A DNA stretch of 37,296 bases, taken from IMG/VR virus record IMGVR_UViG_3300025168_000244, positions 1 through 37,296 of that record; one strand, written 5' to 3'. This DNA is from a virus. Below the pieces are notes generated by a model. The model had not been told where the DNA came from, did no database searches, and worked only from the letters and a program-made list of their open reading frames with translations. The stretch's first letter is position 1; every line of letters begins with the position of its first letter. Both the position numbers and the translations under genes were made by a program. Positions 5,193-16,801 of the stretch are shown here, one piece after another.

Positions 5193-5208
5193 TGTTTCAC
5201 GTGAAACA
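5193..5208. promoter_or_regulatory. parS-like: Perfect parS-like palindrome 1
   Basis: The 16-mer TGTTTCACGTGAAACA is a perfect inverted repeat and matches the bacterial chromosomal parS consensus TGTTNCACGTGAAACA, the ParB/Spo0J binding site, at every position. It lies 38 bases upstream of the TerL start. No parA or parB gene is seen in the window, so a host ParB is the likely partner, if any. An alternative is an operator or RNA hairpin in the TerL leader. Confidence 0.8.
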
Positions 5209-5215
5209 ATCACGA

Positions 5216-5231
5216 TGTTCCACGTGGAACA
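5216..5231. promoter_or_regulatory. parS-like: Perfect parS-like palindrome 2
   Basis: The 16-mer TGTTCCACGTGGAACA is a second perfect palindrome, 23 bp centre-to-centre from the first. It keeps the invariant CACGTG core and differs from the parS consensus at one position, with the symmetry kept. Two such sites in tandem within 39 bp are very unlikely by chance. Confidence 0.75.
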
Positions 5232-5239
5232 TAACACGT

Positions 5240-5269
5240 ATTATATGCGATTTTAAGCACAAATATAAG
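5240..5269 (-). promoter_or_regulatory. Possible TerL-operon promoter
   Basis: A TATAAT hexamer on the minus strand at 5245-5240 has a weak -35 (CTTATA, 5269-5264) with an 18-bp spacer. A transcript from here would start near 5233, so both parS-like palindromes would lie just downstream of the start site, in the TerL leader. The -10 is strong and the -35 is poor. Confidence 0.35.
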
Positions 5270-5655: not shown

Positions 5656-5680
5656 AAAAAAGCCCGCACGTTGGCGGGCT
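5656..5680 (-). terminator. Rho-independent terminator T1
   Basis: On the minus strand AGCCCGC and GCGGGCT form a 7-bp GC-rich stem with a 6-base loop, followed by a run of T. It ends the 6225-5702 gene pair and belongs to a set of four near-identical terminators (with those near 6312, 7095 and 7605). Confidence 0.9.
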
Positions 5681-5701
5681 TAGTGGGGCACTGGGGCGGC
5701 T

Positions 5702-5905
5702 TTAGAACTCGAAGCCAACCCAAACAAGCTGCGAGCCTTTAAGCATGATGTCGCGGCTTATATCGTCCCAATCGTCGCAGCGGTAGCGTTTATAGCTGCG
5801 GTCATATTCGCCCCGCGTGTAAGTCTTTTTAGCGTCCAGCTTGCGGCGTAGGAACTCACCGCGGGGGACATCTTTTAACGGCATCTGCTGGATAGTGTCG
5901 ATCAT
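5702..5905 (-). CDS. Hypothetical 67-aa protein
   Basis: A small charged protein rich in Arg, Lys, Asp and Tyr, with no membrane segment or recognised domain. The core reads YDRSYKRYRCDDWDDISRD. Its ATG overlaps the end of the upstream gene by 4 bases (ATGA), so the two are translationally coupled. It is followed by a strong terminator 20 bases downstream. It is the last gene of a promoter-genes-terminator cassette; the function is unknown. Confidence 0.75.
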   Translation of the reverse strand: MIDTIQQMPLKDVPRGEFLRRKLDAKKTYTRGEYDRSYKRYRCDDWDDISRDIMLKGSQLVWVGFEF

Positions 5906-6225
5906 GCGGCACCCCCTGCGATGATGGTTACCCGGTCATTCTCGCCAACATCAAACAAGCCCCCGGCAGTAATTACCCGCTGCGAATGGTCCCGCTGGCA
6001 AAAGCCAAACGGTGCGCCCAATTCGTCGCAAATACCATTTAAGCGTTCGCGGGTTGTGACAGTGCCCCAGCCTGCGAGGGTGACCCACACGCTGCCGTCA
6101 TCTTCCCGCTGCGCGATGCGGTTACCATGTAGCCAAACGGTGCGCCCGTCGGTTTCAGTGCGGGCAGCTTTTGCAGCTTCACCCCGTGCGAATGCTTGCG
6201 CGATCTTTTTGGTTTCTTTTCTCAT
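5902..6225 (-). CDS. Hypothetical 107-aa protein
   Basis: A soluble protein with a basic, Ala-rich N-terminal helix (MRKETKKIAQAFARGEAAKA). A beta-rich part follows with TVWLHGNRIA and VWVTLAGWGTVTTRERLNGI, a pattern seen in small phage accessory proteins. No domain with known function is recognised. TACGGAG lies about 9 bases before the ATG. It is the first gene of its cassette, starting about 45 bases downstream of a well-formed promoter, and it overlaps the next gene by ATGA. Confidence 0.78.
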   Translation of the reverse strand: MRKETKKIAQAFARGEAAKAARTETDGRTVWLHGNRIAQREDDGSVWVTLAGWGTVTTRERLNGICDELGAPFGFCQRDHSQRVITAGGLFDVGENDRVTIIAGGAA

Positions 6226-6276
6226 TGTTTAAATCTCCGTAGTGAACACGCGGCCACCGCGGCCCCGATGTATAGG

Positions 6277-6306
6277 ATTATACGCGATAGATCGCATAGA
6301 TGTAAA
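6277..6306 (-). promoter_or_regulatory. Early-type promoter P6.3
   Basis: TTTACA (6306-6301), 18-bp spacer, perfect TATAAT (6282-6277). Plus-strand copies ATAGGAT (6272) and ACGCGAT (6282), 10 bp apart, are degenerate forms of the heptamer ATGSGAT found at most promoters here. An exact ATGCGAT lies on the minus strand at 6297-6291. It drives 6225-5702. Confidence 0.85.
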
Positions 6307-6311
6307 CAGGC

Positions 6312-6340
6312 AAAAAAAAGCCCGCACAATGGCGGGCCTT
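6312..6340 (-). terminator. Rho-independent terminator T2
   Basis: A GCCCGC/GCGGGC stem with a 6-base loop, followed on the minus strand by eight T residues. It ends the 7010-6367 gene pair and sits only about 6 bases upstream of the next -35 box. Confidence 0.9.
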
Positions 6341-6366
6341 TAAGAGTTACCGGGGACGGGTTTAGG

Positions 6367-6594
6367 TTAACCATTGAAAGCCCCCCAAGTGCTGGCCGAC
6401 CACGGGCCGGTTATTAGCGCGTCAATTTCGGCAGCGGTTAAAGGGTAGCTGCGGCCCGCCCGGTCGAACCGTTCGCCATCAACTACCACTGATAGGCTGC
6501 TAGTATCCCCGCGAGGGTCACCGTTAAACCAAACGGAAAAACGCGAAACCCTGCCGGGAATTTTTACCCCGTGAAAATAATGTGTCGCCTTCAT
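6367..6594 (-). CDS. Hypothetical 75-aa protein
   Basis: A small protein with a beta-rich first half (HYFHGVKIPGRVSRFSVWFNG). It has a short motif YPLTAAEIDALITGPWSAS near the C-terminus, with the look of a small phage accessory protein. There is no membrane segment or recognised domain. The stop of the upstream gene and this ATG overlap as TAATG, implying translational coupling. It is the last gene of its cassette and is followed by terminator T2. Confidence 0.72.
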   Translation of the reverse strand: MKATHYFHGVKIPGRVSRFSVWFNGDPRGDTSSLSVVVDGERFDRAGRSYPLTAAEIDALITGPWSASTWGAFNG

Positions 6595-7010
6595 TAGTCA
6601 AACCTCGATATTTTAGTTTCACGGGTTGCACGGTCGCGGATCGCCGCTATTCCGTACTCATAAACAAAGCACTCAAAGCCCTCGAAGATGTAACGCGCCA
6701 GCGGTGCCAGTGCTTCGTCTTCGTCATGTTCGCTTTGATAGGTGCCGTTATGATCATCAACGGTTCCCTTGTATGGGTACGCGTTAAAGCCGCCGAACTG
6801 GTAAGCGTCATCCATACCCGACGCGATGGCGTCCAGTGTTAAGGGTGAAGCCATTAGGCAAGCTTGACAAAAGAAGTCAGGGATTAGGCCGCAAGCTTCC
6901 GCCAGTTGCGCTGGCGTTGCCCCGCCTAGGTCTTCGCTTTGCGCTGGGTTATAGACGCGATCCAATACCACGTCCGACGGTCTTAATTTCATTTCTATTA
7001 CATTGCCCAT
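6594..7010 (-). CDS. Hypothetical 138-aa acidic protein
   Basis: An acidic, soluble protein with no domain I recognise. It contains three Cys, and the segment TVDDHNGTYQSEHDEDEALAP is strongly acidic. The C-terminal part (FECFVYEYGIAAIRDR) looks like a beta hairpin. ACGGAGTAAATATT precedes the ATG. It is the first gene of a two-gene cassette with its own promoter and terminator, which suggests it can be gained or lost as a unit. Confidence 0.75.
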   Translation of the reverse strand: MGNVIEMKLRPSDVVLDRVYNPAQSEDLGGATPAQLAEACGLIPDFFCQACLMASPLTLDAIASGMDDAYQFGGFNAYPYKGTVDDHNGTYQSEHDEDEALAPLARYIFEGFECFVYEYGIAAIRDRATRETKISRFD

Positions 7011-7057
7011 AATATTTACTCCGTAATTGCGGCGGCTTTATTGCCCCCGTGTATGGG

Positions 7058-7087
7058 ATTATATGGGATAACTTTATAGAAAGTAAA
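7058..7087 (-). promoter_or_regulatory. Early-type promoter P7.1
   Basis: TTTACT (7087-7082), 18-bp spacer, perfect TATAAT (7063-7058). Two exact plus-strand copies of ATGGGAT at 7053 and 7063 (10-bp period) flank and overlap the -10. It drives 7010-6367. Confidence 0.85.
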
Positions 7088-7094
7088 GCCCCAT

Positions 7095-7122
7095 AAAAAA
7101 AGCCCGCACAACGGCGGGCCTT
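7095..7122 (-). terminator. Rho-independent terminator T3
   Basis: A GCCCGC/GCGGGC stem with a 6-base loop and a seven-T tail on the minus strand. It ends the single-gene cassette 7518-7141 and lies next to the -35 of P7.1. Confidence 0.9.
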
Positions 7123-7140
7123 AGTTACTATTAAGAAAGC

Positions 7141-7518
7141 TTAAACGCTCAAGGTCAATTCCAATTCAAAGTTTGAATAATCAACGTCGACGCAAACATC
7201 CCCGTCGTTTATTAATTCTTTGAGAACGTTGCGGATATGTTCGTCGCTGTTTGGTTCGGTTTCTAACCGTTCCGATATACGGCGATCAATAAACCGCTCG
7301 ATCTCATTAAGCAAAGAATGCCCCGCGCTATCTTTAAAGCTTTGGACCTGCGCCGACATTTCGGAAACGTTGCGCTCAAGCTGGACCGCATAATCGCGCA
7401 AGTTTTTAAGGTCCGCCGCGGCGGCTCTAATATCTTTGCCGGTCTCTTCTAATCCGTCGGCTAAGTATAGCGCCGCTAATCCGTCTAGGTGGTCTAGGTC
7501 TGTTTTTAAGTCAATCAT
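7141..7518 (-). CDS. Hypothetical 125-aa coiled-coil protein
   Basis: Mostly helical, with Leu spaced in heptad style from about residue 8 to 85. Segments such as DLKNLRDYAVQLERNVSEM and LLNEIERFIDRRISERLE suggest a coiled coil and dimer or oligomer formation. The C-terminal tail (VCVDVDYSNFELELTLSV) looks like beta strands. There is no catalytic motif or membrane segment. The gene forms its own cassette, with a strong promoter upstream and terminator T3 directly downstream. The function is unknown. Confidence 0.75.
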   Translation of the reverse strand: MIDLKTDLDHLDGLAALYLADGLEETGKDIRAAAADLKNLRDYAVQLERNVSEMSAQVQSFKDSAGHSLLNEIERFIDRRISERLETEPNSDEHIRNVLKELINDGDVCVDVDYSNFELELTLSV

Positions 7519-7569
7519 TTTAATTACTCCGTAGGTTAAGGTTAAACGGCCTGCCCGCCGTCGTATGGG

Positions 7570-7599
7570 ATTATATGGGATAACTTTGTAAAAAGTAAA
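7570..7599 (-). promoter_or_regulatory. Early-type promoter P7.6
   Basis: TTTACT (7599-7594), 18-bp spacer, perfect TATAAT (7575-7570). Exact ATGGGAT copies at 7565 and 7575 repeat the geometry of P7.1. The two promoters share a 20-base block around the -10. It drives 7518-7141. Confidence 0.85.
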
Positions 7600-7604
7600 G
7601 ACAT

Positions 7605-7632
7605 AAAAAAAGCCCGCACAATGGCGGGCCTT
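7605..7632 (-). terminator. Rho-independent terminator T4
   Basis: The stem-loop GCCCGCACAATGGCGGGC is identical to that of T2, with a seven-T tail on the minus strand. It ends the DUF932 gene. Confidence 0.9.
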
Positions 7633-7653
7633 TTCGGTTTAGCTGTTTAGAGT

Positions 7654-8844
7654 TTATGCGGTCACTTTATCCAGCAATGCGCCCGCTTTCTTTTCAATCT
7701 CTATTCGCGCATCTTGGTGCGGTATATCTCGCGCTATTGCGGTGATCGCCTGCGCCGCATCCCAAACCGTTTCAACCGGTCGGCCCTCTTCAGACATATG
7801 ACGGGCGGCGGCGGCTTTCGCCATGCGTCCAGATAATCCGGCGCGTTTGCTCAAAAACTCTAAGCGGCTTTCGTCATCCGTCGCAATCTTGGCAGCTTTC
7901 GCGGCTTGAACGCCCTCGACAAATGTAGCGGTCGCACCATGCGCAAAGCTTTCCAAAGCTGGGCGGGCTTCCATGGCGAAGCGATCCGGCGCGAATTTAG
8001 TGTGACGGATTTTAATTTCGCTAAAGTTCTCGACGCCCCAAAGGTTTCGATTCATGCAAACCCCGCGCAAATACATCGCCGCAATTCCTGCCGTTTTGCT
8101 GCCGGTCTCACTGTTCCAAGCGTAGAACCCGCGGAACATTAGATCGGGCTCGCCGTTAGCAAGCTTGCCGACTTCAATAGGGTTTCGATCATCCACAAGG
8201 AAAACAAAAACATCGCGATCACTTGCGAACAATGTTGTCGTGTCATTAGTAACGGGTATTTCTGGGTCATATACCGCCATACCGTCGCGGCTCCCCGTCA
8301 TCATGCCCGGCACTTTCCAACGTCCGCCAGATTGATCTACTAATCTTTTAATGGGTTCCAATATTTCCCAGTCATAAATACGCCCATAGTCTGGCCCCGT
8401 CGCGGCTCTAAGTTCGCCGCCATCGTTTTGACTGCCGAAAACCTTTATCAGTTCTTTACCCCGGTTATATTTCAAACCCCATTGAATGCAATCCGCTGCC
8501 AACGGTGCGGGCAAGTCTTTAAGGTAACCGGCAGGCGCTCCGGCAAGCTGGGACAATTGTCCAAAGCTCCAATTTGTTGGGCTGTTAACATGTTCCCGGT
8601 GATTGTCGTCGGCGTACTCAATCCGCAAATCTCCGCGGCTAGGGTTCGCTTCGTCAAATTCTCCAACAATCTGGATTTTATGAGTGTCAACCGTGCGGCT
8701 GGTCATTAGGGCGGCGTCGTTCTTTTTATATGCCAACATACTGTCGAGCGATAAAAACTTTTGATCGTCAGGGCGGTTATACCACTGTGAAGATACTGCG
8801 GAATTGCCAATCCCGTGCGCTAAAGCGTTAGTTTGATAAGTCAT
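7654..8844 (-). CDS. DUF932 / TIGR03299-type phage-plasmid protein
   Basis: A 396-residue protein of the DUF932 family, common on phages and plasmids and of unknown biochemical role. The usual blocks are present: the SNWSFGQLSQLAGAPAGYL-like N-terminal block (here TNWSFGQLSQLAGAPAGYL), then GPDYGRIYDWEIL, then YDPEIPVTNDTTTLFASDRD and FRGFYAWNSETGSKTAG with CMNRNLWGVENFSEIKIRHT. I place the start at the ATG at 8844, because ACGGAG lies 9 bases before it and the longer reading to 8895 runs into the promoter. It is a one-gene cassette with its own promoter and terminator. Confidence 0.88.
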   Translation of the reverse strand: MTYQTNALAHGIGNSAVSSQWYNRPDDQKFLSLDSMLAYKKNDAALMTSRTVDTHKIQIVGEFDEANPSRGDLRIEYADDNHREHVNSPTNWSFGQLSQLAGAPAGYLKDLPAPLAADCIQWGLKYNRGKELIKVFGSQNDGGELRAATGPDYGRIYDWEILEPIKRLVDQSGGRWKVPGMMTGSRDGMAVYDPEIPVTNDTTTLFASDRDVFVFLVDDRNPIEVGKLANGEPDLMFRGFYAWNSETGSKTAGIAAMYLRGVCMNRNLWGVENFSEIKIRHTKFAPDRFAMEARPALESFAHGATATFVEGVQAAKAAKIATDDESRLEFLSKRAGLSGRMAKAAAARHMSEEGRPVETVWDAAQAITAIARDIPHQDARIEIEKKAGALLDKVTA

Positions 8845-8893
8845 ATTATGTTCTCCGTAAAAACAAAATGGGGGCGGAATTGCTCCCACCCCC

Positions 8894-8924
8894 ATAATAT
8901 CGCATATCTTCTTATAGTTGTAAA
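8894..8924 (-). promoter_or_regulatory. Promoter for the DUF932 gene, P8.9
   Basis: TTTACA (8924-8919) and TATTAT (8899-8894) with a 19-bp spacer. The heptamer ATGCGAT lies on the minus strand at 8905-8899, next to the -10. The -10 choice is less certain than at P7.1 or P7.6. Confidence 0.6.
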
Positions 8925-8941
8925 GCTAATATTTAAAAAAG

Positions 8942-9070
8942 TTATCTGCGCCTTCGAACACGCTGCCGGGACTTAACTGGCTTACGATTGGGTTGGCGGT
9001 TGCGCCTATCCAACTCTTCGAGTGTTTCGCTGCCATAAATTAAACGGCTAATAAACCTTAGAATAAACAT
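8942..9070 (-). CDS. Small Arg-rich protein, 42 aa
   Basis: Found by reading the gap between larger genes. The ATG at 9070-9068 follows GGGGGTAAA, and the stop TAA is at 8944-8942. The first about 12 residues are hydrophobic and basic (MFILRFISRLIYG). A short acidic middle (SETLEELD) follows. The last about 22 residues are packed with Arg and Lys and end VRRRR. A nucleic-acid-binding or membrane-associated peptide is possible. A 22-codon frame (9123-9055) just upstream has an ACGGAGG site and could be a leader. P9.15 lies upstream. Confidence 0.5.
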   Translation of the reverse strand: MFILRFISRLIYGSETLEELDRRNRQPNRKPVKSRQRVRRRR

Positions 9071-9141
9071 TTTACCCCCAGTCTTTTTGAATGCCGGTCT
9101 TTTTCAATTGATTGCATTGTCATCCTCCGTAGTTTTGTTGA

Positions 9142-9621
9142 CTATGGGATTGTATGCGATGTTGTGGGACAGATCAAGGTGAAAACTTCGGTCCAGTCTA
9201 TTTTGCCTGCTATGTGGTGGTAAGGTTCAACCTTCAAACCCTCCATCTTTAAATCTACCGCATCAGCACCTTTGAACAAAAACATTTGTTCGGGTTGGTT
9301 TTTAGTCTTATGTTTTTTAACCATGACCCAGACGCTGCCGTGCCCATGATTAGTTAGCCAAGCGACTTGGTGCGGTCGCAAGTCTACCGCATTGCCTGCG
9401 GTCGCTTTCAATTCTACAAAGTGAAAATTGCCAAACTCATCTAACAAAACTACGTCAGGCACTCCGGGCATAGCCCACGTTTCTAACCGGGTTGCTTTAA
9501 TGTTGCGTCCGGTTTTCTCCATCCCCGTCTTCATCTGCCTCCAAAAGTCGGCCTCTCGCTTTGTCGCGGTTTTGGGGATTGCTCTCTCTTTCGGGAGTAA
9601 CGTCGATAGTAATCGGGGCAT
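9142..9621 (-). CDS. VRR-NUC-like endonuclease (PD-(D/E)xK fold)
   Basis: A 159-residue nuclease candidate. The key signature is PGVPDVV (Asp56) followed by FVELKA (Glu70, Lys72), the D-ExK core of VRR-NUC / Holliday-junction-resolvase-like enzymes. Glu23 in KREADFWRQM would supply the N-terminal acid, and LRPHQVAWL matches the usual post-core helix. Likely roles are recombination, repair or host DNA breakdown. It overlaps the small terminase gene by 125 bases in another frame. AAGGAG lies 13 bases before the ATG, a long spacing, but the N-terminal helix with Glu23 supports this start. Confidence 0.82.
   Translation of the reverse strand: MPRLLSTLLPKERAIPKTATKREADFWRQMKTGMEKTGRNIKATRLETWAMPGVPDVVLLDEFGNFHFVELKATAGNAVDLRPHQVAWLTNHGHGSVWVMVKKHKTKNQPEQMFLFKGADAVDLKMEGLKVEPYHHIAGKIDWTEVFTLICPTTSHTIP
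9149..9177 (-). promoter_or_regulatory. Promoter for the Arg-rich small gene, P9.15
   Basis: TTGATC (9177-9172), 17-bp spacer, TACAAT (9154-9149). Plus-strand ATGGGAT at 9144 and ATGCGAT at 9154 have a 10-bp period and the same position relative to the -10 as at P7.1 and P7.6. It lies inside the 3' end of the nuclease gene. Confidence 0.7.
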
Positions 9622-10105
9622 AGCTTTGTTTTAACTCCTTGAGTGCTTTTAAGACTTCATCTTTATTCATGCCGTCGATGCTGCCTGTTCTAATTTCACT
9701 CTTACTTACATAAATGTCACCTTGCGCTTGCCCTCGCCGGTACTCTGCTTGAACGGCGGCACTGTATGCCCCGTTATTTAGTGCCATATCCCGGATCGTT
9801 TGCAGGTCCCTTAGATGGCGTTGGTAGTTAACCCCAAACTTTTCGTCCAGTTCTGCACGATAAGCTTGGATAGCGTGTACTACGTGCGGGCTGATGTTTG
9901 GGTTTGTTAGCTCATACGCTCTAGTGTGAGCGGAGCTTACGGGGTAACCAGCATTGATCGCGGCCTCCCTCATAGTAATTTGCCCATCTTTCGAAACCAG
10001 TTCTTTTACAAACAGTTCCTGCTTGCGGGTCAAAGGTTGTGCTTTAGTTGCTCTAGGCCTGCCCGCTTTCTTTTTAGCGACAGTCTTAATAGATTTGCTT
10101 GTCAT
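9497..10105 (-). CDS. terS: Terminase small subunit (Terminase_2-like)
   Basis: A 202-residue protein likely to recognise phage DNA and load TerL. A basic N-terminus with an AT-hook-like GRPR (residues about 15-20) precedes LTRKQELFVKELV at about 25-37. The helix-turn-helix MREAAINAGYPVSSAHTRAYEL follows at about 44-66. This is the order seen in Terminase_2/XtmA-type small subunits. A helical region for oligomerisation (about 80-130) and a charged tail follow. It lies 4.3 kb from TerL, among early genes, next to an iteron-like region. The call rests on the N-terminal motifs; another HTH role cannot be ruled out. Confidence 0.72.
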   Translation of the reverse strand: MTSKSIKTVAKKKAGRPRATKAQPLTRKQELFVKELVSKDGQITMREAAINAGYPVSSAHTRAYELTNPNISPHVVHAIQAYRAELDEKFGVNYQRHLRDLQTIRDMALNNGAYSAAVQAEYRRGQAQGDIYVSKSEIRTGSIDGMNKDEVLKALKELKQSYAPITIDVTPERESNPQNRDKARGRLLEADEDGDGENRTQH

Positions 10106-10531
10106 ACAATACTCCAGTTATTAAACGATAGTTTGCCACAAACTAGAACGCTTTTACATATATAGGAAGTAAAATATATTTTAAATAAAAAAAACTTTCA
10201 GGCCCTTATACGCAGTCTGCTCCCTTATGGTTACATAAACTCTGGTACGGTTACATATTTGTTTTTAACTTATGTAACTGTAAATCTCTATATATAACAT
10301 AGGCTTAACTGCTCCGGTTACACGGTTACACCGGTTACACCTATTTTAACAAAACTTTTTTATTTTCTATTTATATCTCTATATAGTAGATGGTGTGTTA
10401 AGTGTGCCCCGTGGGCCGTGGATCACGTTATAATGTCCATGGTCAGCCCTCTATGCACGTCTTGCAGGCGTTCTTGCTTGCTTCCCCTATGTCGTCGGGG
10501 GGCGGGCCACCTTATAGAACAGGTATCTTTA
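10106..10531. other. Intergenic control region, AT-rich with leader
   Basis: A gene-free stretch between divergently oriented genes. From 10141 to 10400 it is AT-rich, with the GGTTACA repeats listed separately. A TATAAT at 10429-10434 on the plus strand, with no good -35, may serve the 10532 gene. A C-rich then G-rich stretch (10483-10507) could form a leader hairpin. The region suits an origin or a regulatory hub. Confidence 0.5.
10229..10339. repeat. GGTTACA iteron-like repeats
   Basis: Five exact direct copies of GGTTACA start at 10229, 10249, 10316, 10324 and 10333. One inverted core, TGTAAC, lies at 10273. The last three are packed as CGGTTACACGGTTACACC and onward at 8-9 bp spacing. 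They surround an AT-rich run (TATATATAACAT near 10290). Such an arrangement is typical of replication-initiator or repressor binding arrays. Confidence 0.6.
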
Positions 10532-10765
10532 ATGGAAAAAGTGTTGGTATTTGCACTTATCGTTGAGATTATGGCTAATGGTGCGGTGACCGACAAAGAT
10601 GCGGTGACCGACAAAAGCGAGTATGGTTTCTGGCGCGATGTCAACGATTGTGTTTACTTTGCGCGAGCGTTATCTCTTCAGTTCCAAGATGTACGGGACT
10701 TTGATATTCCTATAAAAGCTTATTGCGTACCCAAGTTTGTCGATGAAGACGTAGAAATTTTCTAA
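10532..10765 (+). CDS. Small secreted or membrane protein, plus strand
   Basis: A 77-residue protein. I place the start at 10532 because the N-terminus MEKVLVFALIVEIMANGA then reads as a signal-like hydrophobic segment; the upstream extension is low-complexity. An 18-base direct duplication (10583 and 10601) encodes AVTDKD/AVTDKS. The C-terminal domain contains NDCVYFARAL and AYCVPKF; the two Cys could form a disulfide outside the cytoplasm. Small proteins with this DC...AYC pattern recur in marine phages, with no known function. It is one of only two plus-strand genes and overlaps the convergent gene by 4 bases. Confidence 0.65.
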   Translation: MEKVLVFALIVEIMANGAVTDKDAVTDKSEYGFWRDVNDCVYFARALSLQFQDVRDFDIPIKAYCVPKFVDEDVEIF

Positions 10766-11139
10766 CCCTTGAACACCAATACGGCCAGCCCGGACAGTAA
10801 TCCACCTACCGCAGCTAATACGAGGTGCTTATTCTTTTTGTACCATGGTCCGAGTTCCGCGATAGCTGGTGGAATATCTTCGTGCCAGTGTTCGTCGGTC
10901 GTTTCTGGTGGTGTAATGACGATTAACTCAGCGTCTTTTGCTTTGGTTAGGTTTACAAGCAGCATATGGTCGCAGATTATTTTTTCATCCCAACGGTTCA
11001 CGAGCTTTGGTCCGCGGTTTGCGGTGGTCGGTACTTTGATGGGTTTAGGAAAGTCCCCGGATTTTATTTTCCGATAGATAGTTGGTGTAGACATACGTGC
11101 GATCTCGCACACTTCATCTATGGTGAGTAGCTTTTTCAT
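10762..11139 (-). CDS. AlpA-like HTH protein with C-terminal membrane anchor
   Basis: A 125-residue protein. Residues about 4-35 (LLTIDEVCEIARMSTPTIYR, then KIKSGDFPKPIKV) match the AlpA/excisionase-type winged helix that binds DNA. A middle region (about 50-95) has DAELIVITPPETTDEHWHED. Residues about 105-123 (HLVLAAVGGLLSGLAVLVF) form one clear membrane helix, preceded by the basic KKNK. A DNA-binding head with a membrane tail is uncommon for this family. It could tether DNA or regulate from the membrane. A promoter lies just upstream. Confidence 0.8.
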   Translation of the reverse strand: MKKLLTIDEVCEIARMSTPTIYRKIKSGDFPKPIKVPTTANRGPKLVNRWDEKIICDHMLLVNLTKAKDAELIVITPPETTDEHWHEDIPPAIAELGPWYKKNKHLVLAAVGGLLSGLAVLVFKG

Positions 11140-11170
11140 TACGGTCTCCGTTTAAGTTAGTAGCACCCAC

Positions 11171-11200
11171 AGTGTATGGGATTTTATCTATAAAAGTCAA
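11171..11200 (-). promoter_or_regulatory. Promoter for the AlpA-like gene, P11.2
   Basis: TTGACT (11200-11195), 18-bp spacer, TACACT (11176-11171). One exact ATGGGAT lies on the plus strand at 11176. The -35 overlaps the end of the preceding gene. Confidence 0.6.
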
Positions 11201-11373
11201 CCACGTAGTATCCGTTGCCAAGCCTTCTCTACTTCGAGGGTTTGTTGTTGTTTTTCTTTCTCGGACAACGACTCGTCTTTTGCAATTTGTACGAGGGTTA
11301 TGTTAACTAAACGGTTGATCCTACTAATGGACCACGTGTAGCTCATTTCTTCTATTCGCTTCTCGGCTTCCAT
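11197..11373 (-). CDS. Hypothetical 58-aa helical protein
   Basis: A short charged helical protein: EAEKRIEEMSYTWSISRINR, later SEKEKQQQTLEVEKAWQRI. I choose the ATG at 11373 because GGAGGTGGACAC gives an excellent ribosome site there; the upstream ATG at 11394 has none. It overlaps the upstream gene by 22 bases, suggesting coupling. There is no known domain. It could be a small regulator or adaptor, but nothing shows this. Confidence 0.65.
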   Translation of the reverse strand: MEAEKRIEEMSYTWSISRINRLVNITLVQIAKDESLSEKEKQQQTLEVEKAWQRILRG

Positions 11374-11558
11374 GTGTCCACCTCCGCGTACCATTTGCCA
11401 CCTTTGCTTTCCTTAACCTGAACGTTAATCCATTCGTCGGTCTGGCCCGTGAGCCACGTTATGAGGTCCGCTCTTTTAATACTGATTGCGCACTTAACAA
11501 AGTCAGGTGCTTTCTCATTGGGTTTTTTAGCCATCAGGCCATCTACAAAATCTGCCAT
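11352..11558 (-). CDS. Small conserved phage protein (MADFVDG type)
   Basis: A 68-residue protein of a type I have seen in many marine and alphaproteobacterial phages. It starts MADFVDGLMAKKP, then has KAPDFVKCAISIKRADLITW and VQVKESKGGKWYAEVDTWKP. The function is unknown; the pattern suggests a small beta-rich protein. TTAGGAG is about 9 bases before the ATG. The leader upstream contains a terminator-like hairpin (11577-11596), so expression may be attenuated. Confidence 0.78.
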   Translation of the reverse strand: MADFVDGLMAKKPNEKAPDFVKCAISIKRADLITWLTGQTDEWINVQVKESKGGKWYAEVDTWKPRSE

Positions 11559-11576
11559 TTTCTTTCTCCTAAACGT

Positions 11577-11596
11577 AAAAGCCCCCCGCTGGGGGC
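11577..11596 (-). terminator. Terminator or attenuator before the MADFVDG gene
   Basis: On the minus strand GCCCCC pairs with GGGGGC around a 4-base loop and is followed by TTTT. A further C6 run (plus-strand G6 at 11605-11610) could pair with the same G run instead. It could end the 12051-11706 operon or attenuate transcripts from P11.65. Confidence 0.7.
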
Positions 11597-11653
11597 AACC
11601 AAACGGGGGGCAGGTTCAACTACGGAGAACATGGTGTCGCCATGCTCAAGCGT

Positions 11654-11683
11654 AGTATAAACCGGTTAATATGGGATAAGCAA
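11654..11683 (-). promoter_or_regulatory. Promoter P11.65
   Basis: TTGCTT (11683-11678), 18-bp spacer, TATACT (11659-11654). ATGGGAT lies on the plus strand at 11671 and ATGCGAT on the minus strand at 11696-11690, so here the heptamers are inverted. It would transcribe through the hairpin at 11577-11596 into 11558-11197. Confidence 0.55.
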
Positions 11684-11705
11684 CACTTAATCGCATACAT
11701 GTAAC

Positions 11706-11909
11706 TTAATCCTCGCAAGTGTCACAAGAACCACCGGGAAATTCTCCCGCGGACAATGGGTCTGTTATCTTCAAACCACAGTTGCTACACTTTCGCATAA
11801 GACTGTCTTCGGTCCTACCTAAATAAATTAGCTCTAGATTACATTTGGGGCAACGGTTAGCCACCAGCCTTTTATGTATCTGACCCTTCTCTTTTATTAA
11901 GTTCGCCAT
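11706..11909 (-). CDS. Zinc-ribbon protein, 67 aa
   Basis: Two CxxC knuckles, CPKC and CSNC, are about 20 residues apart and form a classic zinc ribbon. A third pair, CDTC, is at the C-terminus (GGSCDTCED). I place the start at the ATG at 11909, where GCAGGT is 7 bases upstream; the ATG at 11939 lacks a site. It overlaps the RHH gene upstream by 38 bases. A nucleic-acid or protein-binding role is likely from the fold. Its pairing with an RHH regulator suggests a transcriptional function (inference). Confidence 0.75.
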   Translation of the reverse strand: MANLIKEKGQIHKRLVANRCPKCNLELIYLGRTEDSLMRKCSNCGLKITDPLSAGEFPGGSCDTCED

Positions 11910-12051
11910 TGCTTTTACCTGCGTCCTTGTACCATTCAAAGACCAGCCGTAGCTGTCCTCCTATGGTTCTGCCTTCTGATTTTGACAGTTCTTTTATTTC
12001 TTCATAAACCTCTCGTGGTACGAGAATGCTTTTCCAACGTGTTGTGTCCAT
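11872..12051 (-). CDS. Ribbon-helix-helix DNA-binding protein, 59 aa
   Basis: Found by reading the gap; the ATG is at 12051 and TAA at 11874-11872. The protein reads RWKSILVPREVYEEIKELSK then SEGRTIGGQLRLVFEWYKDA, the beta strand plus two helices of Arc/CopG-like repressors. The N-terminal strand RWKSILV would insert in the DNA major groove. AAGGACAA precedes the ATG. It has its own promoter and is an attractive candidate for the regulator that reads the shared promoter heptamers (inference). Confidence 0.78.
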   Translation of the reverse strand: MDTTRWKSILVPREVYEEIKELSKSEGRTIGGQLRLVFEWYKDAGKSNGELNKREGSDT

Positions 12052-12086
12052 TTGTCCTTCTCCGATGCCCCCGGAATATATCTACG

Positions 12087-12115
12087 ATATTATAGGAACA
12101 TATAGAAGAATGCAA
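12087..12115 (-). promoter_or_regulatory. Promoter for the RHH gene, P12.1
   Basis: TTGCAT (12115-12110), 17-bp spacer, TAATAT (12092-12087); a TATAAT is also present with a short spacer. It has no exact ATGSGAT heptamer, unlike most neighbouring promoters. Confidence 0.55.
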
Positions 12116-12116
12116 G

Positions 12117-12144
12117 AAAAACCCCCGATCCGAAGACCGAGGGT
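12117..12144 (-). terminator. Strong terminator after the papain-like gene
   Basis: A 10-bp stem closed by a TTCG tetraloop on the minus strand (ACCCTCGGTC and GATCGGGGGT, two wobble pairs), with A/T runs on both sides. It could act in both directions. It ends the 12611-12153 gene. Confidence 0.88.
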
Positions 12145-12152
12145 TAGTTTTT

Positions 12153-12611
12153 TTACTTCAGGTAGTACCCGTACACGCACCGGGTTCCGTCTCTTGAGCA
12201 ATCGTGGGTGTCTTGTATGACTCCATCAATCACCGCAGTAAAATGTCTTGAGACACTTACGACCAAATGGCCTGACGGTAACTCATCTGCTTTCAGGTGT
12301 GTCTTACACCCGGAGCCGATCTGCATGGTGGGGGTCCAAGTAAATCCCAGTTCCAGCATGTAATCTTTAAACCACTTTCGTGTGGTAGAAATTCCATCAC
12401 GTGCTGTCCGGGTTCTTTCACCTTTGTCGTGTTTCGATTTACGCTGCTTGGCGTTTCCTTCGGCTAGTCTGTCGTAGACTTGCTGGTAGGGTAGCCTTGC
12501 TGCTATGGCTATGGACCGGGTAACACAGTCGCCCGTGTCGCCTTTGTATCCTGCGGCCTTGCGGCCTCCGTCATTGTAAACGAACACAGGTGTAGGGTTG
12601 ACTTCACTCAT
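12153..12611 (-). CDS. Papain-like cysteine peptidase fold protein, 152 aa
   Basis: A phage protein with a probable papain-type fold. TGDCVTRSIAIAA puts Cys29 at the start of a helix. SRHFTAVIDG gives His123, and QDTHD gives Asp134 or Asp137, the order Cys-His-Asp of papain-like enzymes. PYQQVYDRLA follows the Cys helix as in related phage proteins. Possible activities include peptidase, transglutaminase-like or deamidase; the substrate is unknown. ACGGAGG precedes the ATG. It stands alone between a TTGACA promoter and a tetraloop terminator. Confidence 0.72.
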   Translation of the reverse strand: MSEVNPTPVFVYNDGGRKAAGYKGDTGDCVTRSIAIAARLPYQQVYDRLAEGNAKQRKSKHDKGERTRTARDGISTTRKWFKDYMLELGFTWTPTMQIGSGCKTHLKADELPSGHLVVSVSRHFTAVIDGVIQDTHDCSRDGTRCVYGYYLK

Positions 12612-12697
12612 GGTGAACCTCCGTAGTTGATTAAATTGTCAAAGAGCGTGGGGATTTGCCCTCCCCAATCAACCGGGTCATTCCGATTGATATACGC

Positions 12698-12726
12698 ACT
12701 TTAACATATTATCGCATACGTGTCAA
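12698..12726 (-). promoter_or_regulatory. Promoter for the papain-like gene, P12.7
   Basis: Perfect TTGACA (12726-12721), 17-bp spacer, TAAAGT (12703-12698). ATGCGAT lies on the minus strand at 12717-12711, in the spacer. It is just downstream of the DNA polymerase stop. Confidence 0.75.
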
Positions 12727-15130: not shown

Positions 15131-16641
15131 AGGTCATAACTCCGTGAAACATCTTCTGCGTCTACTATATACAAATTCTGTTTAGCACGAGTTACGGCAA
15201 CATAGAAAATGCGGTGAGTATCGTCCGGGTGGCGTTGGAACTGGGTATCCGCTGCTGGACTAAGGTCCGTGAACAGCACAACATTATCGGCTTCACCACC
15301 TTTTGACCCGTGGATCGTGGACGCTGTAATGCGAGGGACGCCATTAAACTTCTCGCCCCTACGTAAAAGTGCCGTAACGTAAGCCCTGTCAGTATCAGGC
15401 AGCTTGTTCATAGCTTGGGACCAGATCATATCTTTGTTCGCAAGCAACCCCTGATCTTTTAAATTATCAAAAGTTAAAATGTCGTTGTCTTCTATTCCCG
15501 GTAGCTTCTTAAAGCCCCGCGTCAGTCTTTCTCCAACAGACATGTAGCTGTAAATAATGCGAGCCACCTTACCTGTTACTTCCTTACCTTTTCGTACCTG
15601 CTCCCAACCATTGACCGCTTCACTAACCTTCTCGCTTATAGACCGGTTGCCGCGGTAGTTGAACAGATACCCACTAGACTTTAGGTCGTGAGCTACAGGC
15701 GTTAGTTGATAGCCTGCCTGCGATAAAATTAACCAATCCCCTTGCGCCATATCTAAAGAATTGATAGTTGAGATACGCGTCACATTGCCGGGTTCTGATC
15801 GTGGTTTGTACTGCTTTGGAAAGCGCCTAGCAATGCGACGCACGACATTCTCTGCTACATCGTGGACCCGACTAGGGATACGATACGACTGCGAAAGTAT
15901 CTCTGAACCTCCGGGTAAGTTAATAAAGTGGTCAACATCTGCACCAGCCCATCGGTAGATAGCTTGGTCATCATCACCTGCGCAGTACATCCTCTTGGAC
16001 TTAGTATCTAGTAAGTGAGCTATGTCCCACTGCAATGGGGATAAATCCTGTGCCTCATCTAAGAAGCACAGATCAAAATCTGGGCAGAAAGTGTTACCGT
16101 TGGTAGCAAATTGTTCAAGCATGTCAGTAAAGTCATACAAACCCATGCTTTCTTTGTACTCTTTCAAGCACTTCGATACGTGGAAAACAGTGTTCCACTC
16201 CTCTTCTATATTGCTTTTGTTATACTCTTCACGAAGGTCTGACTTGCACAAACGAGATAAGTTAATTAAACCAAGGATAGGATCACTACTAGCCACCATG
16301 CTGGGCACATCATCATCTATTGAAGTATTCTTTTGAGCGCCTAGCTCGACACCGATAGCACGACTTAACTCACGGTAGTTCTCCTCCTGCATAACCTGCT
16401 CTGGGCGTATGTCAGACATAGTCAAAGCTAGACTGTGCAGGGTCCTGAAGAACACTAAGTCTTTTTTAGGATCAAGATTAAACCGTGCTGCCGCACGTTC
16501 TTTAGCTTCGTTAGCTGCTTTACGTGTGAAGGCAAGAAAAGCTATTCGATCCGGTGGAGTTCCGCTTTCAAGAGCTTTGTCTACCATGTTTAAAAGAGTC
16601 GTAGTCTTACCTGTACCGGGTGGTCCAAATATCCTATACAT
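15127..16641 (-). CDS. UvrD/PcrA-like SF1 DNA helicase
   Basis: A 504-residue helicase. Walker A FGPPGTGKTT is at residues 5-14, motif II is CFLDEAQDLSPLQW, and motif III is CAGDDDQAIYRWAGAD. Motif V-like is ASTIHGSKGGEADNVVLF and motif VI is IFYVAVTRAKQNLYIV. It should unwind DNA in the 3'-5' direction, in replication or repair. It is shorter than cellular UvrD (about 720 aa), with reduced accessory domains. The ATG at 16641 follows GGGAGAAG and matches the usual MYRIxGPPGTGKT start; a GTG at 16677 is the alternative. No DnaB-type helicase is seen in the window. Confidence 0.93.
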   Translation of the reverse strand: MYRIFGPPGTGKTTTLLNMVDKALESGTPPDRIAFLAFTRKAANEAKERAAARFNLDPKKDLVFFRTLHSLALTMSDIRPEQVMQEENYRELSRAIGVELGAQKNTSIDDDVPSMVASSDPILGLINLSRLCKSDLREEYNKSNIEEEWNTVFHVSKCLKEYKESMGLYDFTDMLEQFATNGNTFCPDFDLCFLDEAQDLSPLQWDIAHLLDTKSKRMYCAGDDDQAIYRWAGADVDHFINLPGGSEILSQSYRIPSRVHDVAENVVRRIARRFPKQYKPRSEPGNVTRISTINSLDMAQGDWLILSQAGYQLTPVAHDLKSSGYLFNYRGNRSISEKVSEAVNGWEQVRKGKEVTGKVARIIYSYMSVGERLTRGFKKLPGIEDNDILTFDNLKDQGLLANKDMIWSQAMNKLPDTDRAYVTALLRRGEKFNGVPRITASTIHGSKGGEADNVVLFTDLSPAADTQFQRHPDDTHRIFYVAVTRAKQNLYIVDAEDVSRSYDL

Positions 16642-16801
16642 CTTTACGCTTCTCCCTGCTATAGATTTGTTGGACACGTTGCTTTGATATACACCAGAAT
16701 TTAGCGACGGCTGTCATAGTCATACGCTCTTTGTCTATCATCTTGACTATCTCAGCGTCTCGCATCTTTCGGTGTACTTTATCAGGTACGCCTGCTATCA
16801 A
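16634..16801 (-). CDS. Small helix-turn-helix protein, 55 aa
   Basis: Found in the gap between primase and helicase. A TTG start at 16801 sits 8 bases after GAGGAGG, overlapping the primase stop (16798); the stop TAG at 16636-16634 overlaps the helicase ATG. The C-terminal half MTAVAKFWCISKQRVQQIYS has the look of a sigma-70 region 4 type HTH (AxxxxxSxQRVxQI). The N-terminal half is charged and helical. It could be a DNA-binding adaptor or regulator for the replication operon. An ATG at codon 13 is the alternative start. Confidence 0.65.
   Translation of the reverse strand: MIAGVPDKVHRKMRDAEIVKMIDKERMTMTAVAKFWCISKQRVQQIYSREKRKDV

Follow-up and report, generated by a model that had tools for sequence, protein, structure and literature searches.

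Which protein reads the short sequence that recurs at promoters of this phage, and what does it do there? The window analyzed here, the whole 37,296-nucleotide stretch of a 37.3-kb virus record (IMGVR_UViG_3300025168_000244), carries the tailed-phage genes portal, terL, terS, DNA polymerase, helicase, and primase. The interval from the polymerase (12744) to terL (5155) is made up of small genes, almost all on the minus strand, and the recurring unit, the octamer TATGSGAT (reverse complement ATCSCATA), is found at nine promoters here. Sequence comparisons argue that these octamers are probably operators of the phage's own 59-amino acid ribbon-helix-helix (RHH) protein, and that the likely action is repression of single-gene early units.

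The original prediction listed eight promoters bearing the heptamer ATGSGAT. Counted across the window, as it had advised, the heptamer occurs 18 times compared with 7.4 ± 2.6 in dinucleotide shuffles, none of 100 of which reaches 18, and the tandem ATGSGAT-N3-ATGSGAT occurs 3 times vs 0 in shuffles. Nor is the heptamer as frequent in coding sequence as at promoters, the outcome named as fatal to the idea, because non-coding DNA, 2464 bases in all, holds 12 of the 18 copies (odds ratio 28, p = 9e-11). The true unit is the octamer, with 15 exact copies in the window vs 1.7 expected, and four octamer pairs lie 10 or 20 bp apart vs none in 300 Markov simulations. Nine octamer promoters result, all of the ordinary, near-consensus sigma-70 type, and most drive one small gene:

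5240..5251, minus strand: terL promoter (P5.25), the ninth operator; one octamer ATCGCATA (5251-5244) overlapping the -10 TATAAT (5245-5240) in the same slot; kept in relatives.
6271..6306, minus strand: P6.3; -35 TTTACA (6306), -10 TATAAT (6282-6277); three octamers starting at 6271, 6281, and 6291, centers 10 bp apart, the third inverted; drives 5902-6225; orthologues in relatives.
7052..7087, minus strand: P7.1; -35 TTTACT, -10 TATAAT; octamers 7052-7059 and 7062-7069; drives 6594-7010; kept in relatives.
7564..7599, minus strand: P7.6; -35 TTTACT, -10 TATAAT; octamers 7564-7571 and 7574-7581; drives 7141-7518; kept in relatives.
8896..8924, minus strand: P8.9; -35 TTTACA, -10 GATATT (or TATTAT); one inverted octamer 8899-8906, as many as three degenerate units at 10-bp spacing in relatives; drives the DUF932 gene 7654-8841.
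9143..9177, minus strand: P9.15; -35 TTGATC, -10 TACAAT; octamers 9143-9150 and 9153-9160, and a third unit 9163-9170, degenerate in the window and stronger in some relatives; drives 8942-9070.
11171..11200, minus strand: P11.2; -35 TTGACT, -10 TACACT; one octamer 11175-11182; drives the AlpA-like gene 10762-11139; conserved.
11670..11697, minus strand: P11.65; inverted octamer pair 11670-11677/11690-11697 around a putative -35, centers 20 bp apart, an arrangement found in 44 unique contexts in relatives; drives 11352-11558.
12698..12726, minus strand: P12.7; -35 TTGACA, -10 TAAAGT; one inverted octamer 12711-12718 in the spacer, two units 10 bp apart in some relatives; drives 12153-12611.

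The heptamers of the eight promoters listed earlier are all present where they were placed; the terL promoter had been overlooked, as had further copies at P6.3 and P9.15. The geometry proposed for four of the eight, in which copies start 5 bases to either side of where the -10 hexamer begins (plus-strand coordinates), holds exactly for P7.1, P7.6, and P9.15, and P6.3 obeys it using octamer copies with one mismatch.

Relatives define the unit and its spacing more sharply. We gathered 158 loci via the polymerase and the DUF932 gene, about 1.5 Mb in total. With a greedy open reading frame caller, coding and non-coding DNA of the full-length relatives differed only weakly, probably because spurious frames cover promoters, and we therefore chose spacing and promoter-anchored tests. 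The motif built from these relatives, another step that had been advised, is not the heptamer but the octamer ATCSCATA: across 220 pairs, the A at position 8 is conserved at 90-96% although it was unseeded, and two free bases separate the units. Same-strand heptamers lie 10 bp apart 57 times, every other spacing occurring at most twice, and octamer centers are separated by 10 (145 cases), 20 (48), 29-30 (18), and 39-40 bp (11). Direct, divergent, and convergent pairs alike fall on these distances, P6.3 in the window shows the same orientation-free phasing, and no octamer centers at 10 or 20 bp were found in the DSL-LC04-type control. Since direct and inverted pairs share the same center distances, a symmetric, dimeric reader is suggested, with its two-fold axis expected at the octamer center. 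Operators of at least two subsites in helical phase are a feature of RHH-type systems, and proteins of this type could bind those seen here.

The distribution of the motif across phage groups points to one gene. A promoter-anchored comparison of 81 HTVC023P-type and 81 DSL-LC04-type loci, together with an O group (L184-L262, G005, and G006) reached, along with relatives of the window phage, by seeking the exact tandem in all viral contigs, showed that ATSSGAT is promoter-associated in two groups besides that of the window, the HTVC023P-type pelagiphages and the O group. In an unbiased ranking of 7-mers behind TTGACW, TATCCCA, ATCCCAT, and ATGGGAT come top in HTVC023P-type loci and TGGGATA and ATGGGAT in the O group; the same search in DSL-LC04-type loci gave nothing similar. 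An unbiased repeat search in the O group likewise ranked ATCCCA first among repeats spaced by 10 bp. With an alignment of eight RHH sequences, from window-type phages and HTVC023P together, as query, the RHH protein is encoded in 10 of 10 O records above 29 kb (E about 1e-7), and it is also present in HTVC023P and in every window-group record tested. DSL-LC04, by polymerase (56%) a closer relative, has neither the RHH protein nor a motif excess. Among the protein families of the window, RHH alone occurs in the window, G019, G020, HTVC023P, G005, and G006 but not in DSL-LC04. RHH is the best candidate reader because its family alone follows the motif across groups and is absent from motif-free DSL-LC04. 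The association also holds forward for three of five contigs from bacterial assemblies that were fetched by RHH alone: L449, L450, and L451 contain 7, 3, and 5 octamers vs 0.6-0.8 expected, many at TTGAC-type promoters, and in L450 and L451 octamers also lie directly upstream of the RHH gene. The earlier idea that one phage regulator reads an array of operators is thereby supported, and this distribution across lineages singles out RHH as its probable reader.

The protein in question is encoded at:

11872..12051, minus strand: RHH protein, 59 amino acids (MDTTRWKSILVPREVYEEIKELSKSEGRTIGGQLRLVFEWYK...), proposed reader and repressor, assessed by fold, profile, and conserved strand.

Its AlphaFold2 model places helices 13-26 and 30-47 behind an N-terminal extended stretch, with a pLDDT (predicted local distance difference test) of about 90. 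The strand is not formed in this monomer model; in RHH proteins, pairing of the N-terminal strand requires the dimer. The predicted architecture agrees with the beta-alpha-alpha RHH fold of MetJ, Arc, and CopG. Foldseek and VIA-align matches are mostly RHH proteins (Arc, CdbA, MatP, CopG, and omega), with Arc the top Foldseek match at an E-value of 0.07; structure-match E-values are weak, the protein being very small. Pfam RHH_5 scores 20.9 bits (E = 3e-4), below its cut-off of 26, and the profile matches among solved structures (AvtR, E = 0.0017; CopG, 0.07; Arc, 0.11) likewise have weak E-values. The strand sequence [KR][WY]KS is nearly invariant across the three phage groups, with overall identity dropping to about 20%, and is predicted to be the DNA-contact strand. 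In tblastn searches of annotated phages, neither the RHH protein of the window nor the O-type protein found a match, and the HTVC023P-type protein matched only HTVC023P itself, where it is annotated as a 'hypothetical protein'.

How might such a protein act? Each octamer would bind one symmetric RHH dimer, and because the octamers are in helical phase, adjacent dimers, lying on one face of the DNA, could bind cooperatively. Bound dimers would block RNA polymerase by occlusion; repression is likely because the sites cover the -10, the start, the spacer, or the -35 of near-consensus sigma-70 promoters. On phage entry the early promoters would be active; RHH, expressed from the polymerase-proximal region, would build up and then shut off the accessory genes. 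Many genes of the polymerase-terL interval are each preceded by a terminator-like hairpin, a promoter, and a Shine-Dalgarno-like site of their own, so that hairpin, promoter, putative operator, and gene form terminator-promoter-operator-gene units. The hairpins upstream of promoters are:

6316..6341, minus strand: terminator-like hairpin, one of several.
5660-5681, 7099-7122, 7606-7635, 11581-11596, and 12120-12145: further terminator-like hairpins.

RHH perhaps damps its own production, and weak autoregulation is possible through a pair of sites at the promoter of its gene:

12081..12098, minus strand: P12.07, RHH gene promoter; weak pair TTCCTATA and ATCGTAGA (about 2 mismatches), 10 bp apart over the -10; conserved in relatives.

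The exact octamer is absent from P12.07 and from P10.1, the terS promoter, in the window. The P10.1 region (10105-10200) is conserved in relatives (TTGTGGCAAACTATCG) without an octamer, and terS therefore seems to lie outside the regulon.

Several observations weigh against RHH repression. In the window, only weak copies stand at the promoter of the RHH gene itself. The octamer is only partly palindromic, and an RHH dimer should prefer near-palindromic subsites, although omega offers a precedent for asymmetric sites. HTVC023P-type phages have mostly single units or other spacings rather than the 10-bp array, and 10-bp ATCSCAT pairs are not enriched in them. Among the five RHH-fetched contigs, L452 and L453 contain octamers in no excess over expectation, and 8 of the 81 control loci encode other RHH-like proteins. 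Moreover, because the related sequences are not independent of one another, the counts overstate the number of events, and the lineage test draws on few full records per group.

The alternative that survives best keeps RHH as the reader but gives it more to do than repress: it would activate, or act as a switch between early promoters and later ones, that of terL included. The octamer in the terL promoter would fit such a role, which we nevertheless regard as unlikely: the units lie over the -10 and start of near-consensus promoters, positions that activators seldom occupy. It is more doubtful still that a host transcription factor, shared by the phages through related hosts, reads the sites. 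An operator common to several phage groups could be so explained, and host regulators can be exploited by phages, but the motif follows a phage gene, RHH, that is missing from DSL-LC04, and contigs fetched by RHH carry the motif too.

The third alternative concerns a protein that is itself a member of the putative regulon and not a likely reader:

10762..11139, minus strand: AlpA-like HTH_17 (helix-turn-helix) protein; Pfam HTH_17, 29.7 bits.

It was favored at first, since 10-bp direct repeats fit head-to-tail binding and its own promoter, P11.2, holds an octamer. The MerR-like protein BldC, which binds direct repeats cooperatively, provides a precedent (PMC5859096), differing in that inverted units keep phase here. 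The AlpA-like protein does not accompany the motif everywhere: L134, L141, and L151 lack it yet keep the motif, and no HTH_17 match turned up in HTVC023P or in 9 of the 10 O records above 29 kb. The inverted units at exact 10- and 20-bp center distances also point to a symmetric reader, and AlpA-like reading was dropped as very improbable. Of the three candidate readers originally named, RHH is thus the one retained; the third, a 55-amino acid HTH protein (16634-16801), has a weak match in one O record and none in HTVC023P. A TerS-like protein was rejected as unspecific because it is found in every group, including motif-free DSL-LC04. Finally, that the octamer belongs to an extended phage promoter for a modified polymerase or sigma factor, the other original proposal, is scarcely credible despite its fixed offset over the -10 at four promoters, because octamers occur in both orientations and in several slots (around the -35, in the spacer, over the -10, and at the start) beside ordinary -35 and -10 hexamers, and the scanned proteins include no phage RNA polymerase or sigma factor save a sub-threshold region-4-like match in the 55-amino acid HTH protein.

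RHH repression also has counterparts among known systems. Omega (ParB of pSM19035) is an RHH dimer, as is predicted here, and reads a short asymmetric unit, repeated in direct or inverted orientation, at promoters, where a pair of repeats is bound with high affinity by two dimers (PMC9499535). Its heptads are contiguous with a 7-bp period, whereas the phage units are 8-bp octamers with a 10-bp period, spread over nine promoters. P22 Arc, the top Foldseek match, is a small phage RHH repressor over phage promoters, the role we infer here. Arc acts on one palindromic operator region, in contrast to the multi-promoter regulon of orientation-free units in the window. CopG and AvtR, the latter a viral regulator, are with Arc the best profile matches among solved structures; they differ in that CopG controls one plasmid promoter, and the matches are weak and from other hosts. 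In archaeal viruses, Aca8 is a DNA-binding protein proposed to shut off small early genes (PMC11065993), and a common regulatory sequence likewise precedes many of them; Aca8 differs in being a predicted winged HTH protein with an archaeal promoter element, and anti-defense roles for the window genes would be conjectural. A search of the published literature returned no description of the octamer operator or the 59-amino acid RHH protein. The regulon and operator type are new, and their kind (Arc/CopG/omega) is known.

A defined operator with its reader would be a transcription-control element for abundant, poorly understood marine phages, and the octamer a sequence handle for locating early host-takeover genes and for learning how early genes are switched off. 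More tentatively, and with somewhat greater doubt than belief, we propose that marine phages (the window group, the HTVC023P-type pelagiphages, and the O group with its different replication module) have long shared one small RHH protein as a master switch, which reads orientation-free octamers at whole helical turns, and that its operators mark swappable single-gene early units, many for host takeover or anti-defense, that could be found by operator alone. The O group and the window group have portal, terL, terS, and structural genes in common; no match to the window polymerase, helicase, or primase was found in the O group. Because structural genes are shared while replication genes are unmatched, replacement of the replication module is suggested.

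A possible further branch is HTVC027P (L454), which encodes a diverged RHH-like protein (KYKSLAV) near 11.6 kb and has few window-type heptamers (4 in 30 kb). TAGGATA occurs at four of its TTGACA promoters (414, 17689, 19247, and 19797), with a total of six in 30 kb vs 4.5 expected; the HTVC027P-side DNA set beside TATGSGAT is TATAGGAT. One of these promoters drives gp34-gp33, reported to peak at 6-9 h (PMC12753301). That TAGGATA is a drifted operator of this RHH-like protein is suggestive only.

A separate feature lies between the terL promoter and terL, where the window has two perfect chromosomal-type parS palindromes, at 5193-5208 and 5216-5231 (TGTTTCACGTGAAACA and TGTTCCACGTGGAACA). Sites of parS type occur in 55 of the 158 relatives' loci, 28 of the 55 having more than one, and in G019 and G020 the pair is 24 bp apart. 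Five parS-bearing phage records yielded no ParB family protein, and the phage sites may be bound by host ParB. HTVC027P has an intergenic parS-like palindrome, GTTTCACGTGAAAC, at about 16410-16430.

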